Assembly: GCA_009697455.1 (NCBI GenBank)
Contig: SHUI01000004.1
Span: 1-50,117, forward strand
Length of the DNA stretch: 50,117 bases
DNA from: Bryobacterales bacterium
GTDB taxonomy: Bacteria > Acidobacteriota > Terriglobia > Bryobacterales > Bryobacteraceae
Direction of reading: 5' to 3'
This document shows positions 6,419 through 14,681 of this stretch, in pieces; within the stretch, counting starts at the first letter, position 1, and each line of letters opens with the position of its first letter. A model generated the notes under the pieces. It searched no databases. It saw only the letters and a program-made list of their open reading frames with translations, and had not been told where the DNA came from. A program made the translations under genes and the position numbers.

Positions 6419-9400
6419 TCACCAGACGAGTTTCAGCGCGATCTGGCCCTGCCGTGCGGGAAAGCTCGACGTGATGAGTCCGAAACTGCCGTTGCTGCGG
6501 TTCGAGTCCGGCGCGAGTAAGTTGGTGCGGTTGAACAGGTTGAAAAACTCGCCGCGCAGCTCGAAGATCATTCCCTCCCGCGGAAGCGGGAATCGCTTGT
6601 GCAAGCCGAAATCGGTCCCAAAGTAATTAGGGGCGATCACCACATTGCGTCCGGCGGTGCCGTAGGGGTTTGCCAGTTCGTTCGCGCCCACTAGAACCTC
6701 TTTCACGCTGTCACGGCTCAAGAAATTGTTCGGATCCCCGCCCGGGACTTTCGGGTTCCCAACGAGATTTGCCCGAATATTCCCGATGGTACCCACCTGA
6801 AGGCGCGAGGTAGCGCTGTAGATCAGATTCACCGGCAGCCCGCTGTTCATCGTAGTCGTCTGGCTCAGGTTCCAGCCACCGAGAACCATGTTACCGAGGG
6901 CGGGCATGCTCGACCCGAATTTCTTGCCTTTGCCGAAGGGCAGTTCGTAAATCACCGTGAACGTGTCGTTGAAAGGCTGGTTATAGCCCGAGACACCCTT
7001 GTAGGAGCCGCGCCGGGTGAAGCTGATGCGCGAATCGTCGCCGCCCGAGGTTTCCAGATGCCCCGAGGCGTTATCGAGCGCCTTCGACCAGACAAACGTG
7101 TTCAGCAGCAGAAAGCCGTTCGTGAAACGCCGTTCGAGCTTGGCTTGCAGGGCATTGTAGTTGGAGAAGCCGGCGGGTTGGGCGATCTGGATCTGGCCGA
7201 AACCCTGAACCGGGCGGCGGGAGTTGATCGAGATGTTCTCGCCGGGATTGTTAAACCGCGCTTCGTTGTAGTCCGAAAGGATCACCAGTTTGTTGCTGCG
7301 GTTTCCAACGTAGGCGACGTCCAGCACGACGTTGCGGGCGATCTCCCGCTGAATGGTGAAGTGCCAGTTCATGGTGTACCCGGTGCGCGTGTCCGAGGGA
7401 ATGAAATTGGTGCGCGTATTCCCGGTGCTAGCCAGAGTGGGGCTCAGGATTCCCGCCGGATAGCCGTCCTGCGTAGGCCGGAAGCAATTCTGCGGCAACT
7501 GGCCCGCCGTGCAGCGGCCCTGGTTCGGAATCTGGTCGATGCCCACGCCGATAATGCCGGGCAGGTTGTAGGCAAGCAGATTCTCGCCACCCAGCCGGTT
7601 GAAGTGGATGAAGCTCACGCCGAAGCCTCCGCGCACCACAGTCTTGCGGTTGAGGTTATAGGCCATTCCAAATCGCGGCGCGAAGTTGTTGCGGTCCGGA
7701 TTGACCAGAGCGCGGCTCGACAGAGAGCCGCTCTTGGCCTGGACGATCGTTTTCGTGGCCGGGTCGAAGTTCGAAAGGATGTTATCCCGCTCCCACTGCG
7801 GAGTGGCAAACTCGTAGCGCAGGCCCATGTTGAGCGTGAGTTTCGAGCTAAGTTTGAAGTCGTCCTGCACGTAGCCGAAGTACATGCGCTGGCGGTAGTT
7901 TACAATCACGGCGTTGTTGAGCTGGTACCGGTTGCGAAGCCCAAGCATGAAGTCGGCCAGATTGTAGAGGTTGCTTGACGTGCCGGCAGGACCGGAGAAC
8001 CGGCTGCCGTAGTTGTCCTGCCCGTACTTGGGGTTGAAGTCGTCGATTGCGGTGTCGATGGCTTGATATTCGAAACCGAATTTCAGACTGTGACGTCCGG
8101 CCATGTGAGAGAAATTCCCCTTCGGGTTCAGCAGGAAGGGATTCTGGAACTGAGGGTTCGAGGACTGCTGTCCGAACTGAGTGAATCCGCCGACGCTCTG
8201 CGCATAGAGGCCTCCGGCGAAGCGCGGGTCTTCCGGAAGGCCGGTGATACCGTACGCCGCGGACGCGGGAGGCTGGCCGATGAATACCGGCAACTTGCCG
8301 CCTTCCGTCTGCGAAACGGCCATGCGGAACTCCGCCACGCTGCGAGACGACAGTGTGTAGGTGAGCCCGTAGGCGGCCTGATAATTCAGAACGCGCAGAT
8401 TGCCGTTCGCGTTGCCGCCCGACGGTCCGGGAATTCCCGGAGGCTCGAAGTTGTTGGCAAGCCGGTGCGAGTAGCGGCCGAACACCTGCACCTTATTGTT
8501 GACATACCAGTCGATTCGGAAATCGCCCTTGTCGTTCTGGTCCGTCTGGCGGGGCAGAAGTTCGTAGTTGTTGGCGAACAGGCCGTTCGAGGGGATGCCG
8601 GTGCGATTGGGCGCGGGCAGCTCGCTCAGCACTTTTCTCGCGAACGGAGTCATGTCGCTCTGTGGAATCACGCCGTTGGCGTAGGATACGCCAGTCAACG
8701 GATTGGTGACAGGCACGCCCAGGACGCCATTGCGCTGATCAAGCGTCGGAATGGTAGAGAGATTCAGAGCGCGGCGTACTCTGCGGTAACCCTCATAATC
8801 GGCGAAGAAGAAGATCTTGTCCTTCCTTATGGGTCCGCCGATCGTCGCGCCGAACTGATTCTGCTGAAGGGTCGGCTTGCGGTTCTCGCGGGGCTTGAAG
8901 AAGCCGACGGCATTGAGGTTCGTGTTGCGGATAAAGTTCCAGCCCGCGCCGTGGAACTGGTTCGATCCGCTCTTGACGGCCGCGTTGATGACTCCTCCGC
9001 CCACGCGTCCGTACTCGGCGCTAAAGCTGTTGGTTTCGATGCGGAACTCTTGGACCGCGTCCGGGGAAAGCTGAACAATTTGATTCGAGAAGCCCTGGTT
9101 GGAGGTGCCGTAGGCGTTGTTGTCGACGCCGTCGATGATGAAATTATTCAAGGCGCTGCGCATCCCGTTGATATTGTAGGAGGCGTCGCGGAGCGAGCCG
9201 CCATCCGGCGTTATGTTCAGTGTCGAGCGGCGCACTCCGGGAGCGAGAAGGGCGAGGTCGGCGTAAGAGCGCCCATTGAGCGGAAGGTTTACGATCTGTG
9301 TCGCGCTCATCGCGTGGCCGCGGGCGCTGGTGTCGGTTTCAAGGGCGGCTGCCAGGCCGGTGACGGTGACGGTCTCGGACACTGCCGCCACTTGCATCGT

Positions 9401-9709
9401 AAGGTCCACGCGCTGACGGGTACCTACCGTGACGACGAAGGGCGCGGCGCTTGCCGGCGAGAAGCCGGACCGGTCCGCCCGAAGCGTGTAGCTCGCGGGA
9501 CGGACGTTTACGAACTGAAAATTGCCATTGCCGTCGGTCTCCTGCTTCACCGCGACTGACGTCGAGACGTTCGTGAGCGTGACCGCGGCGCCGGGTACGG
9601 CAGCTTGGGCGGAGTCGCGAATGGTGCCGAGCACACTGGCGCTTTCAAACTGGGCGTTCGCGAGCGAGGAGAAAAGCAGTGCGGCCGCAAACGGGCGAAA
9701 ATACGTCAT
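6419..9709 (-). CDS. TonB-dependent receptor with N-terminal carboxypeptidase-regulatory-like domain
   Basis: Signal peptide MTYFRPFAAALLFSSLANAQ, then GTIRDSAQAAVPGAAVTLTNVSTSV, plug-like LPLNGRSYADLALLAPGV and long beta-rich barrel; RBS-like GGGAGG just upstream of the chosen start. Confidence 0.93.
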   Translation of the reverse strand: MTYFRPFAAALLFSSLANAQFESASVLGTIRDSAQAAVPGAAVTLTNVSTSVAVKQETDGNGNFQFVNVRPASYTLRADRSGFSPASAAPFVVTVGTRQRVDLTMQVAAVSETVTVTGLAAALETDTSARGHAMSATQIVNLPLNGRSYADLALLAPGVRRSTLNITPDGGSLRDASYNINGMRSALNNFIIDGVDNNAYGTSNQGFSNQIVQLSPDAVQEFRIETNSFSAEYGRVGGGVINAAVKSGSNQFHGAGWNFIRNTNLNAVGFFKPRENRKPTLQQNQFGATIGGPIRKDKIFFFADYEGYRRVRRALNLSTIPTLDQRNGVLGVPVTNPLTGVSYANGVIPQSDMTPFARKVLSELPAPNRTGIPSNGLFANNYELLPRQTDQNDKGDFRIDWYVNNKVQVFGRYSHRLANNFEPPGIPGPSGGNANGNLRVLNYQAAYGLTYTLSSRSVAEFRMAVSQTEGGKLPVFIGQPPASAAYGITGLPEDPRFAGGLYAQSVGGFTQFGQQSSNPQFQNPFLLNPKGNFSHMAGRHSLKFGFEYQAIDTAIDDFNPKYGQDNYGSRFSGPAGTSSNLYNLADFMLGLRNRYQLNNAVIVNYRQRMYFGYVQDDFKLSSKLTLNMGLRYEFATPQWERDNILSNFDPATKTIVQAKSGSLSSRALVNPDRNNFAPRFGMAYNLNRKTVVRGGFGVSFIHFNRLGGENLLAYNLPGIIGVGIDQIPNQGRCTAGQLPQNCFRPTQDGYPAGILSPTLASTGNTRTNFIPSDTRTGYTMNWHFTIQREIARNVVLDVAYVGNRSNKLVILSDYNEARFNNPGENISINSRRPVQGFGQIQIAQPAGFSNYNALQAKLERRFTNGFLLLNTFVWSKALDNASGHLETSGGDDSRISFTRRGSYKGVSGYNQPFNDTFTVIYELPFGKGKKFGSSMPALGNMVLGGWNLSQTTTMNSGLPVNLIYSATSRLQVGTIGNIRANLVGNPKVPGGDPNNFLSRDSVKEVLVGANELANPYGTAGRNVVIAPNYFGTDFGLHKRFPLPREGMIFELRGEFFNLFNRTNLLAPDSNRSNGSFGLITSSFPARQGQIALKLVW

Positions 9710-9871
9710 GGTGTAACCTCCCTGAGCTTTCTCCATCGTAGCGCAGGAATGTTTCGGTTGGATGACCGGCCGCGGACACTTCAACACGCGCCTGCAGGGC
9801 TTCAATGGTTGGATCGCCTGCCCAAATGCGGCGGCGCCACTATTTGATTTGTGGACGCCCTAGTCTCGCAG

Positions 9872-11104
9872 CTATCTCATCCCCAGCAGAATGGCCCGCA
9901 CGCGTTCCGCCACCACTTTCTCCTCGCCCGGCTTCAAACACGCAGCAAAAATGCCCAACCCCGGCCAGGACGGCCGAAACTTCGTCATATCGGCCGCTAC
10001 AATTGACGGCTGGCCAGCCTTCAGGCGGTTGTTCACATCGGCTACCGTCAATCCCAATTGTTTTTCATCCCACTGAATTGAAAGCCTCGGCGAATGGCTG
10101 TAGTCGAGGTTTGTGATGAACTCAGTCTTCACCGTCGACACGCCCGCCACCTGCGCCGCAACCCGTTTCAGCATGGCCTCCTGCGTGCGCCGTTCGCCCT
10201 TCTCATCTCGCTTCAACGCGACTTCAACAGCAGTTAACAAACCGGCGATCTCCTCTTTACCAACCTTCGCAATCCGCGCGAAAAGATTGTACGGAGCGCT
10301 ATTTGCATACGCGGCTTCAACAAGGTTCCTGCGCCCCAGTAGCAGTCCGGAACACTGGGGCCCGCGCAGATTCTTTCCACCGCTAAAAGCCACGAGGTCC
10401 GCACCCATCTTCAGGAACTTCTTCAAGTTCGAGGCCGGGGGAATTTCGGCAGCCGCATCCAGAATCAGCGGTAACCCGGCCTTGTGAGCAATCGCGATCA
10501 TCTCCTCCAACTCCAGCTTGTGGCCCTCGGAGTTATGGCTCAATACCATTCCTAAGGCCGCCGTCCGCGGACCGATAGCCGCGCGAATCTCGTCCGCGGT
10601 CTCGGCTGGAATCACCTTGGTTCCAATCATCCGCCAGTTTTGATCGTACGGATTGCCTGGCCCCGTATGCGCCTTCTGCATTACGATCTCGGTTTTCGAG
10701 TCCGTCAATTCCGGCAGCCGCCTGATCTTCGACAGATCGCCGCCCACGGTCACTGCGCAGGTTGCGAGGCAGATTGCGCAGGACGCGCCGGCCGTTACAA
10801 ATCCGGCCTCGGCGCCGGTCAGTTCCGCCAGCCTCTCCCCAACTCTCTTCTGCAGATCGTGAATCCCCACAAAGTGTTGAGACGCGTCGTCCATGGCGCG
10901 CTTCACCTCGGGATCCATTAGCGTTCCGCCAAGCGTCGTCAAAGTGCCGTAGGCATTGATGAACGTCTGCACGCCAAGCTTCTTGTAGATGGATTCGGGC
11001 GCCTTCGCAGGTACGGGTGCGGCGAATGCCGTCCCGCCGGCCAACGGCAGGACCAGCCCGGACTGCAACAAGCGGCGGCGGTTCAACTCGGCATTCTTCT
11101 TCAT
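9872..11104 (-). CDS. Tat-exported PLP-dependent enzyme, SelA-like / aminotransferase fold
   Basis: Tat-like NRRRLLQSGLVLPLAGG; YKKLGVQTFINAYGTLTTLGGTLMDPEV and FSGGKNLRGPQCSGLLLG (PLP Lys) typical of the SelA-like family. Confidence 0.85.
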   Translation of the reverse strand: MKKNAELNRRRLLQSGLVLPLAGGTAFAAPVPAKAPESIYKKLGVQTFINAYGTLTTLGGTLMDPEVKRAMDDASQHFVGIHDLQKRVGERLAELTGAEAGFVTAGASCAICLATCAVTVGGDLSKIRRLPELTDSKTEIVMQKAHTGPGNPYDQNWRMIGTKVIPAETADEIRAAIGPRTAALGMVLSHNSEGHKLELEEMIAIAHKAGLPLILDAAAEIPPASNLKKFLKMGADLVAFSGGKNLRGPQCSGLLLGRRNLVEAAYANSAPYNLFARIAKVGKEEIAGLLTAVEVALKRDEKGERRTQEAMLKRVAAQVAGVSTVKTEFITNLDYSHSPRLSIQWDEKQLGLTVADVNNRLKAGQPSIVAADMTKFRPSWPGLGIFAACLKPGEEKVVAERVRAILLGMR

Positions 11105-11574: not shown

Positions 11575-13242
11575 ATGACGGCTCAGGAAGGCATCCTCAC
11601 GGCGCTGTTCGCGGCCGCTTGCGCCGCGTGGCTGGCGCGGGAAAGGCAGGCGCGCGCGGAGCGCCGCAATGTGCGCGGAATGTTCGGGCTCGGCGAAGCG
11701 ATCCTGAGTGCCTCATCTCCGCGGGAAATTCTTAGCCGCGTGGCGTGCGTGATCCCCGAAGTCCTGGGTAAAGTCGAAGTCCGTCTTTATCTTCACGACC
11801 GTCCGATGCGTAGCCTCGACCGGATTCTGAACAATCCTGATGACGAGGGCGAATCGATTTCGATCGAGTCGCCGCGCGGCATGGTCCAGCGAGGCGTCGT
11901 CGAGTGTTTCAAGAACAGGGCCCTGCTGGAGATTCGGGATACGCTTCTCAGCCCGTTCGCCGAGGACGATTCGCAACTGGTGGAACTGATGCCGCCGCGA
12001 GCGCTGCTGTTCGTGCCCATGTTCGCGCTGGAAGACGTCATCGGCGTGCTCGAGATTCGGGACAGCCACCGCACCAGAACTTTCTGCCCGGACGGCGGTG
12101 CCGTAGCCCAGCATTTGGCGAATCAGATGGCGCTGGCGATCCGTTTGCTGCGTCAGCACTCGATGCAGGAGAAACTTTCGAGAACGGAGAAACTGGCGGC
12201 CGTGGGCAGGCTCGTTGCGGGGGTCGTGAACGACCTTCAGGACCCGCTGTGTGAAATTTCCCGCATGGCTGAACGCGCGCTGCGGGATAGCGATGGATCT
12301 GACGCGGAGCTTCGACGGATGGCGAAAGAGGCGCGCAAGGCCCATGGAATCGTAACCAGACTGGTTGCCTTCGCGCGCGCCGGGCAGGACGAATCGCGAC
12401 CAGTAGAAATCAACAGGGTGTTGCGCGGCCTCGCCGAATACCGGGACCAGGACTGGATCGCCCGCGGAGTTCATGTCAATCTTGCGATCGGAGAGTACCC
12501 GTTGTACGTACTCGGCGCCGAAGGACAACTCGAACAAGTGCTCATGAATCTCCTGCTCTACGCGGAGCAAGTTCTCCCCGAAACTGATCCGAAATCAATC
12601 GGCATCCGTACCGCGTCGCTCGCGCACCGCGCCTTCATCGATATCGAGTTCAGTTGCGCCGGCGAAGGCAGCGATCCTTTCGCGGCGGGAGCGGAAGGCA
12701 GCGCGCTCGGTGTGTGCCGTAGCATCGTGGTGGGGCATGGTGGAGAAGTGACTCTCGCTCGGAAGGCGTCTGGCTTCTCGGCTTTCGAAGTAGTGCTGCC
12801 CTGCGCGCCGGAAGACGCCGTTTTGGCCATCGCTCCGTCTCACGAAGGAAAACCGGCGCCGCGCAGCCTGACAGCGCTTCTCATTGAACCTGACGAACTG
12901 GAGCAGGCGCGTCTGATGACGCTGCTGAGCGCGCGCGGCTACCGGGTGATACCGGTTCGCGGCGCTGACCAGGGCATCGACCTCGCGGAAAGGCTTCGCT
13001 TCGACGTCGCCTTCATATCGGCACGCTTGTCTGGCCGGAATTTCGAGGAAACGTATGCGACCATCCGCCCGCAGGTTAGCGCATTCGTACTGCTTGAGGA
13101 TGCCGAAAGCGCCGGCGCCGCGCTGAGCGTTGGAGTGGAAGGAAGATTTTTGCTGATGAAACCGGTCGAGGAGGACCGTCTCGATCACACCCTCGATGCG
13201 GTTGAAACTTATCTGCGTCAGTTGCCGGTGGCCCATGTTTAA
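11575..13242 (+). CDS. GAF/HisKA/HATPase-like hybrid sensor protein with C-terminal receiver-like domain (degenerate)
   Basis: GAF-like region, then EKLAAVGRLVAGVVNDLQDPL (H-box-like), EGQLEQVLMNLLLYAEQ (N-box-like), SALGVCRSIVVGHGGEV (G2-like) and receiver-like TALLIEPDELEQARLMTLLSARGYRV...FISARLSG...LMKPVE. Confidence 0.8.
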   Translation: MTAQEGILTALFAAACAAWLARERQARAERRNVRGMFGLGEAILSASSPREILSRVACVIPEVLGKVEVRLYLHDRPMRSLDRILNNPDDEGESISIESPRGMVQRGVVECFKNRALLEIRDTLLSPFAEDDSQLVELMPPRALLFVPMFALEDVIGVLEIRDSHRTRTFCPDGGAVAQHLANQMALAIRLLRQHSMQEKLSRTEKLAAVGRLVAGVVNDLQDPLCEISRMAERALRDSDGSDAELRRMAKEARKAHGIVTRLVAFARAGQDESRPVEINRVLRGLAEYRDQDWIARGVHVNLAIGEYPLYVLGAEGQLEQVLMNLLLYAEQVLPETDPKSIGIRTASLAHRAFIDIEFSCAGEGSDPFAAGAEGSALGVCRSIVVGHGGEVTLARKASGFSAFEVVLPCAPEDAVLAIAPSHEGKPAPRSLTALLIEPDELEQARLMTLLSARGYRVIPVRGADQGIDLAERLRFDVAFISARLSGRNFEETYATIRPQVSAFVLLEDAESAGAALSVGVEGRFLLMKPVEEDRLDHTLDAVETYLRQLPVAHV

Positions 13243-13260: not shown

Positions 13261-13743
13261 ATGAAACGCCGAATTGCCCTTTGTATTCTGTTTGCCTTGA
13301 TCGCTGCCGTACCGGGAAGAGCGGAGAAGTATTCAGGACCACGTCCGAAGAAGGCTGACGTTCCATACCTGTTGCACGGGGACGACTTGGCCGAAACCGA
13401 GTCGGCGGAAGCGCGGGAAGAGACGCGAAAAGACGACAAAGTTTACACAATTCAGGGTGCGAATTCGCCGGCTCGTACGCCGCTTGCGGGACCGATTTTT
13501 GTTCTCAAGACGGACAAGCTGGATGCGGCGCGTCTTGAGCTGTACCGGCTGGAATCGAAAAACGGCAGGCGAGAGGTGACGGTTTCGCGGAAGAAGAAGA
13601 ATGTGACACGCCCGCTTCGCCTCTCGGTCTCCCGTCTGGAGGAGGGTCTGTACCGGATTGAAGTGGACCAGAGCCTGGAAAATGGCGAGTACGCTTTAAC
13701 GCCATCGGAGTCGAACCAGAGTTTCTGCTTTCAGGTGTATTGA
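13261..13743 (+). CDS. Hypothetical secreted protein
   Basis: Signal peptide MKRRIALCILFALIAAVPGRA; starts 18 bp after the preceding gene; conserved-looking composition but no family recognised. Confidence 0.7.
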   Translation: MKRRIALCILFALIAAVPGRAEKYSGPRPKKADVPYLLHGDDLAETESAEAREETRKDDKVYTIQGANSPARTPLAGPIFVLKTDKLDAARLELYRLESKNGRREVTVSRKKKNVTRPLRLSVSRLEEGLYRIEVDQSLENGEYALTPSESNQSFCFQVY

Positions 13744-14040
13744 AGGGCCGTGGGAGGGTGCGGGAGCGCCGGTGGGCGCCTGCCGATTTTTTGCCGCGCC
13801 GCCGTCAGTTTTCGGCTTTCAATAGATCGCGCCGCTGTATGTACTGCTCCCCCCTGAGAGCGAACATCGCCTGCGGCTCGTCGGCCTCCAGCCGGTCGCC
13901 GGCGGCCTTCAGCTTGACCGACACCGAGTATTGGCCGCGCGCTCCATGCGCGCCAGGGCCACCGCAAATCGCTGAGTGGAGTGACGAGGTGAAAGGGATT
14001 CCCAATTGACTTAGTTCACTTAATAGTTCAAAATATAGTT

Positions 14041-14280
14041 GTGAATCGAGTCAATATCCATGACGCAAAAACCAATCTGTCGCGCTACTTGGCGGAACTG
14101 ACAGCCGGCGGGACATTGGTGATCTGCAACCGCAATCAACCCGTGGCGGAACTCCGGTCCCTTCGCAAAAAGGGGGTCCGTAAGCCGCGTATCGGTGTGG
14201 CTAAGGGCGAATTCGTGGTTCCAGGCTCGTTTTTCGAGCCCTTACCCGCCGAGATGATAAAAGCCTTCAGCGGCAAGTGA
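14041..14280 (+). CDS. Type II toxin-antitoxin system antitoxin, Phd/YefM (VapB-like)
   Basis: GTG start; VNIHDAKTNLSRYLAELTAGGTLVICNRNQPVAELRSL is a typical Phd/YefM N-terminus; partner PIN gene overlaps downstream. Confidence 0.9.
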   Translation: MNRVNIHDAKTNLSRYLAELTAGGTLVICNRNQPVAELRSLRKKGVRKPRIGVAKGEFVVPGSFFEPLPAEMIKAFSGK

Positions 14281-14294
14281 GGATTCCTCCCGCC

Positions 14295-14681
14295 ATGAAA
14301 TTTCTGGTGGACACCTGCACATTTCTCTGGATCGCTTCCGAATCGCCGCAGTTGAGCAAGACCGCCGCCGCGGTTTTTCTGGATCGGAACAACGAACACT
14401 ACCTCAGTTCCGCCTCTGCTTGGGAAATCGCCATCAAACATGCCGCAGGGCGCCTTCCCCTTCCTGGCAGGCCGGATTCTTATGTTCCGATGATCCGCGA
14501 AGCGAGCGGCATCGCCTCACTCGAAATCGATGAGGAATCCGCTCTCCACGCTGGAAGGCTGCCTGGGCTCCATTCAGATCCGTTTGACCGTATGTTGGTG
14601 GCGCAGGCAGTCGTCCATGGGATGACGATTCTTACGCCTGATCCGGAGATTCAACAGTATGCCGTGCGTGTCTTGTGGTGA
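14295..14681 (+). CDS. Type II toxin, PIN domain (VapC-like)
   Basis: MKFLVDTCTFLWIASE...LSSASAWEIAIKHAAGRL...HSDPFDRMLVAQAVVHGMTILTPD; acidic PIN residues present. Confidence 0.93.
   Translation: MKFLVDTCTFLWIASESPQLSKTAAAVFLDRNNEHYLSSASAWEIAIKHAAGRLPLPGRPDSYVPMIREASGIASLEIDEESALHAGRLPGLHSDPFDRMLVAQAVVHGMTILTPDPEIQQYAVRVLW

Follow-up and report, generated by a model that had tools for sequence, protein, structure and literature searches.

The window, by which we mean the whole 50,117-nt stretch of Bryobacterales DNA analysed here, encodes a genuine, maintained pseudo-histidine kinase that ends in a pseudo-receiver and for which a signalling role is predicted from the sequence. The gene sits in a recurrent cluster with those for a HAD phosphatase and a small secreted protein (SSP). 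Its reading frame (11575-13242, + strand) is open over 555 codons, and the following parts can be distinguished:

11575..13242, + strand: pseudo-hybrid-histidine-kinase ORF, 555 aa, with the architecture TM-GAF-DHp-CA-pseudo-receiver
11596..11640, + strand: single N-terminal transmembrane (TM) helix, about residues 8-22, recognised from the sequence
11719..12141, + strand: GAF domain, residues 49-189 (Pfam PF01590, E=1e-6, above cut-off)
12163..12399, + strand: degenerate DHp (HisKA-like) domain
12400..12810, + strand: degenerate CA (HATPase) domain
12868..13209, + strand: pseudo-receiver domain, residues 432-545

GAF is the only Pfam domain above its cut-off in the window protein; HATPase_c and Response_reg fall far below theirs, and the PF00072 match is weak (E=0.024), while it is clear in a canonical homologue (L080). 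Homology of the DHp-CA region to HisKA-type sensor histidine kinases is nevertheless evident from profile matches to the solved structures of ZraS (9jfj, E 1e-36), a FixL chimaera (4gcz, E 3.5e-30), and other HisKA kinases. AlphaFold2 models of the whole protein (two input sequences, pLDDT 36) and of the pseudo-receiver alone (pLDDT 61, no significant PDB match) were discarded. In 59 of 101 loci, a signal peptide and an additional domain with a weak match to the OB fold (PF01336) precede the TM helix; the window protein lacks both, and a search upstream of its gene for a remnant of the OB-fold-like domain found none.

The residues on which phosphate chemistry depends are replaced in both halves of the protein, and the receiver Lys is kept:

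12229..12231, + strand: Asn219 (AAC), replacing the phospho-acceptor His of the H-box
12559..12561, + strand: Tyr329, replacing the N-box Asn (NLLLYAEQ)
12649..12651, + strand: Phe359, replacing the D-box (ATP-binding) Asp
12889..12891, + strand: Pro439, at the second position of the receiver's acidic pair, in place of an acid
13018..13020, + strand: Ser482 (TCG), replacing the receiver phospho-acceptor Asp
13159..13161, + strand: Lys529 of LMKPVE, the retained receiver Lys

The preliminary description had reported the His to Asn exchange, the replaced N-box Asn, the Asp to Ser exchange, and the kept Lys, all of which we found in place, the Asn and Ser at the codons it named. The exchanges to F359 and P439 are two further losses, the latter leaving an acidic pair that reads E-P. 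The window protein thus lacks the H-box His, N-box Asn, and D-box Asp of a HisKA-type kinase as well as the phospho-acceptor Asp and acidic pair of a receiver domain, and Ser482 and Pro439 identify the latter as a pseudo-receiver. Autophosphorylation is predicted to be absent from this loss of residues.

Protein and profile searches recovered a single orthologue in each of 27 genomes among 61 relatives. In the family they occur as single copies in at least 137 of 237 genomes and in at least 46 of 76 genera, and in the order in at least 116 of 200 genomes; the family and order counts are lower bounds since only a few top candidates were scored per genome. In a class-wide sample, matches from outside the order were mostly longer kinases; twelve of these served as the outgroup, and all twelve possess the His. 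We fetched 100 loci with their flanks and scored 101 sequences for the His position, 97 of them from the window's own family. None of these 97 orthologues retains the H-box His, the N-box Asn, or the D-box Asp, and a single one (L083) retains the receiver Asp. According to published rates, 0.9% of HisKA domains lack the His and 2.0% of receivers lack the Asp (PMC12632262). Being rare by these frequencies and common to the whole orthologous group, the losses of catalytic residues are not due to chance.

The expectation of the preliminary description that Asn and Ser might themselves be conserved at the lost sites was not borne out. Across the 101 sequences, the His position is occupied by N (36), A (19), S (15), T (10), G (9), R (4), D (3), E (2), Q (2), and H (1), the sole His being that of L080 from a sister family, so that only the absence of His is common. 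Structural positions around it are kept, with an acid (E or D) following the His position in 96% and the H-box Pro in 91% of the sequences (weighted). The HGG glycines also persist (second Gly, 98% weighted). The N-box position is variable (H, L, Y, D, R, F), with His as its commonest residue (51% weighted), and no column inside the family's DHp domain reaches 15% His. Highly conserved positions that are not shared with the outgroup kinases include R457 (100%), T433 (97%), W490 (93%), P439 (89%, weighted), R262, and H180. Five of the clearest clade-specific residues (T433, P439, R457, P460, and W490) lie in the pseudo-receiver; the window protein itself deviates from W490 with a Phe.

More than 130 family matches have open frames, with one internal stop among them. 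One orthologue (L129 in G227, L181) has an internal TAG, and its frame then stops before the receiver. Pairwise dN/dS values range from 0.05 to 0.30 over many pairs and, pooled over 12 close pairs, amount to 0.17 for GAF, 0.12 for DHp, 0.18 for CA, and 0.19 for the receiver. Such low values in a dead core indicate purifying selection, contrary to plain decay. The earlier suggestion of a conserved pseudokinase rather than a decaying gene is therefore upheld by 97 of 97 family orthologues without the His, by their open frames, and by the proposed orthologue test for purifying selection, which gave dN/dS of 0.12-0.19 in every domain, the dead core included.

One sequence records the ancestral state. 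L080, from that sister family, retains the canonical H-box His, N-box Asn, D-box, and receiver Asp, and its HisKA, HATPase_c, and Response_reg matches are all above cut-off, which implies that the ancestor was active and that activity was lost later. The preliminary description had held that canonical orthologues would speak against it; one such orthologue was found, outside the family, and as an ancestral state it leaves the finding standing. In the tree, the order forms one clade (support 100), as does the family (99), and L080 groups with His-less f3 sequences (97), so that the best tree requires two losses of the His; a single His-less clade is not rejected by the AU test (p 0.51). Partial states also occur in f3, where the receiver Asp is kept in L087 and the N-box Asn in L139, both sequences lacking the His.

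Reduction has gone further in some lineages. We checked 58 SSP-bearing family genomes without a full-length pseudokinase match, of which 53 also have no receiver match and five have a recognisable pseudo-receiver. One of the five proteins (G180) is full length and very diverged; the whole DHp-CA core is absent from the other four genomes, which represent three genera (G128, G155, G178, and G179). The protein of G128 consists of a TM segment and the pseudo-receiver (233 aa), and those of G155, G178, and G179 of TM-GAF and part of the pseudo-receiver, the C-terminal half of which is partly eroded and under weaker selection (0.33). The SSP gene lies directly downstream in three of the four core-less genomes (G128, G155, and G179) and in G180. 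G178 and G179, the only close pair among the four, show a dN/dS of 0.21 at a pS of 0.57, and the core-less version is therefore still maintained. In several genomes, the pseudokinase gene is gone and the HAD gene abuts that of the SSP. Since some lineages have lost the core or the entire gene, the latter is not essential throughout the family.

The HAD hydrolase of the cluster resembles the beta-phosphoglucomutase group. In 74 of 101 loci its gene immediately precedes that of the pseudokinase, the stop codon usually lying within ~40 nt of a possible pseudokinase start. In the window's genus it is not adjacent to the pseudokinase, and a search for a HAD match yielded none in G000 and G002 and a weak one elsewhere in G001. 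The SSP gene follows directly downstream on the same strand in 45 of 101 loci, and the pseudokinase-SSP pair is kept, 18 nt apart, in the window's genus:

13261..13743, + strand: SSP, a 160-aa protein with a signal-peptide-like start, 18 nt downstream of the pseudokinase
13770..13785, + strand: terminator-like stem-loop with a trailing T run, behind the SSP gene, from a scan whose total was at chance level

The SSP family has no match in Pfam or NCBIfam. It is an order-level conserved protein that 205 of 257 genomes from the order carry, mostly in a single copy, with 17 invariant columns among 42 sequences. Since it also occurs in genomes without the pseudokinase, the link between the two is not obligate. 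Counted by hand, the SSP is present in 130 of 137 pseudokinase genomes versus 58 of 100 others, a co-occurrence that we do not take as proof because relatedness confounds such counts. Upstream neighbours vary by clade (L070, L071, L072, and others), with either CutA on the same strand and a divergent FtsB-like gene, or a divergent XdhC gene. Elsewhere in the window, we noted a SelA/aminotransferase-class-V-like PLP enzyme (9872-11104, - strand) with an N-terminus (NRRRLLQSG) resembling a Tat export signal, a VapC-like PIN-domain protein (14277-14681, + strand), and a large outer-membrane beta-barrel with a carboxypeptidase-regulatory-like plug (6419-9805, - strand; PF25183, PF13620).

Our preferred reading, to which we assign a probability of roughly 0.6, is that of a membrane-anchored signalling protein derived from a hybrid histidine kinase that works free of phosphorylation, with the pseudo-receiver as its likely output. 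We favour it because both halves have lost the residues of phosphate chemistry while selection maintains the protein, even where the core has been removed. Input would enter via the membrane segment and GAF, and in most relatives also through the periplasmic OB-fold-like domain. The degenerate DHp/CA core may serve as a structural link between the subunits of a putative dimer, and the pseudo-receiver, with conserved residues of its own, would be the most likely output surface, relaying the signal to a partner protein to which it binds. Candidate partners include active kinases and response regulators as well as the products of the neighbouring HAD and SSP genes.

A less likely but still credible reading, over which we favour the phosphorylation-free one, is that the protein regulates an active kinase through its DHp core: the dead DHp/CA would switch a canonical histidine kinase or response regulator by forming a heterodimer with it or docking on it, in the manner of DivL, RcsD, and the ChrS pseudokinase. 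Among the domains, dN/dS is lowest in the DHp (0.12), which keeps the H-box helix with its acid and Pro, and there is precedent in DivL, which binds DivK~P through a response-regulator docking interface without kinase activity (PMC4211667), and in the ChrS pseudokinase, which acts through HrrS and forms HrrS-ChrS heterodimers in BACTH assays (PMC9491836). However, DHp/CA is missing entirely from four related proteins, one pair of which is still under selection, the conserved neighbours include no recurrent kinase or regulator gene, and no close active paralogue was found in the window's genome (74% complete), the best other match reaching ~27% identity.

That the gene is in slow decay, losing its signalling function under relaxed selection en route to deletion, seems improbable to us. 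The free variation at catalytic sites (N/A/S/T/G/R at the His position), the absence of the gene from many family genomes, some with HAD beside SSP, and the existence of reduced forms would fit such a process, but neither the open frames in more than 130 matches nor dN/dS values far below 1, in many pairs as in each domain, would, and new invariant residues have appeared and the core-less pair is still constrained (0.21). Least probable of all is a cryptic enzyme that accepts phosphate at another residue or still binds and uses ATP. K529 and the HGG glycines persist, and His is the commonest residue at the N-box position, but the residues at this site are diverse (H, L, Y, D, R, F), the D-box has lost both its Asp and its glycines, the N-box Asn is missing in 97 of 97 orthologues, and no DHp column offers an alternative His in even 15% of the family.

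Pseudo-histidine kinases and pseudo-receivers are already known as kinds of protein, to which the window family adds a variant. RcsD is a phosphorelay intermediate with an Hpt domain. Like the window family, it is a membrane hybrid-type protein with a transmitter that lacks the conserved His (PMC3842833), whereas the window family has no visible Hpt and a dead receiver. The name pseudo-histidine kinase has been used for proteins with kinase homology that miss at least one catalytic function and are kept in signalling (PMC12632262); homology, residue loss, and purifying selection are all present here, where the signalling role is a predicted one. DivL of Caulobacter is likewise a His-less, lineage-conserved kinase-like protein without autokinase activity, measured for DivL and predicted here (PMC4211667, PMC5361649). 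This alphaproteobacterial protein differs, however, in its Tyr for His, PAS domains, weak binding of an ATP analogue, and known partner DivK~P, while the window family has a variable His position, has also lost the N-box and D-box, and combines a GAF input with a C-terminal pseudo-receiver; with Asn at the His position and a Pfam GAF instead of PAS, the window protein falls outside the DivL family. ShkA and CikA, like the window family, join a histidine-kinase module to a receiver that lacks key residues (PMC12632262), but in these kinases autophosphorylation is under the control of the pseudo-receiver (PsR), whereas here the kinase core is dead too. The ChrS pseudokinase of Corynebacterium is similar as an inactive kinase that still influences signalling (PMC9491836), yet it arose by a CA-domain frameshift in laboratory evolution, in contrast to the natural, family-wide state described here. 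A search of the full text of open-licence literature for a description of this family found none.

On balance, we lean towards seeing in this order a natural series that begins with an active hybrid histidine kinase, passes through a family-wide, doubly dead kinase-receiver, and ends in core-excised proteins, all in a phosphatase-pseudokinase-secreted-protein locus, in which two-component machinery may have turned into a phosphorylation-free membrane signalling family. Few bacterial pseudo-histidine kinases have been studied; PsRs act by binding proteins or ligands, and their switching in bacteria has been called a mystery (PMC12632262). With its single copies across dozens of genera, its two dead halves, a canonical sister, and descendants that lack the core, the family constitutes a natural mutant set with which to ask what a two-component protein does without phosphate chemistry.
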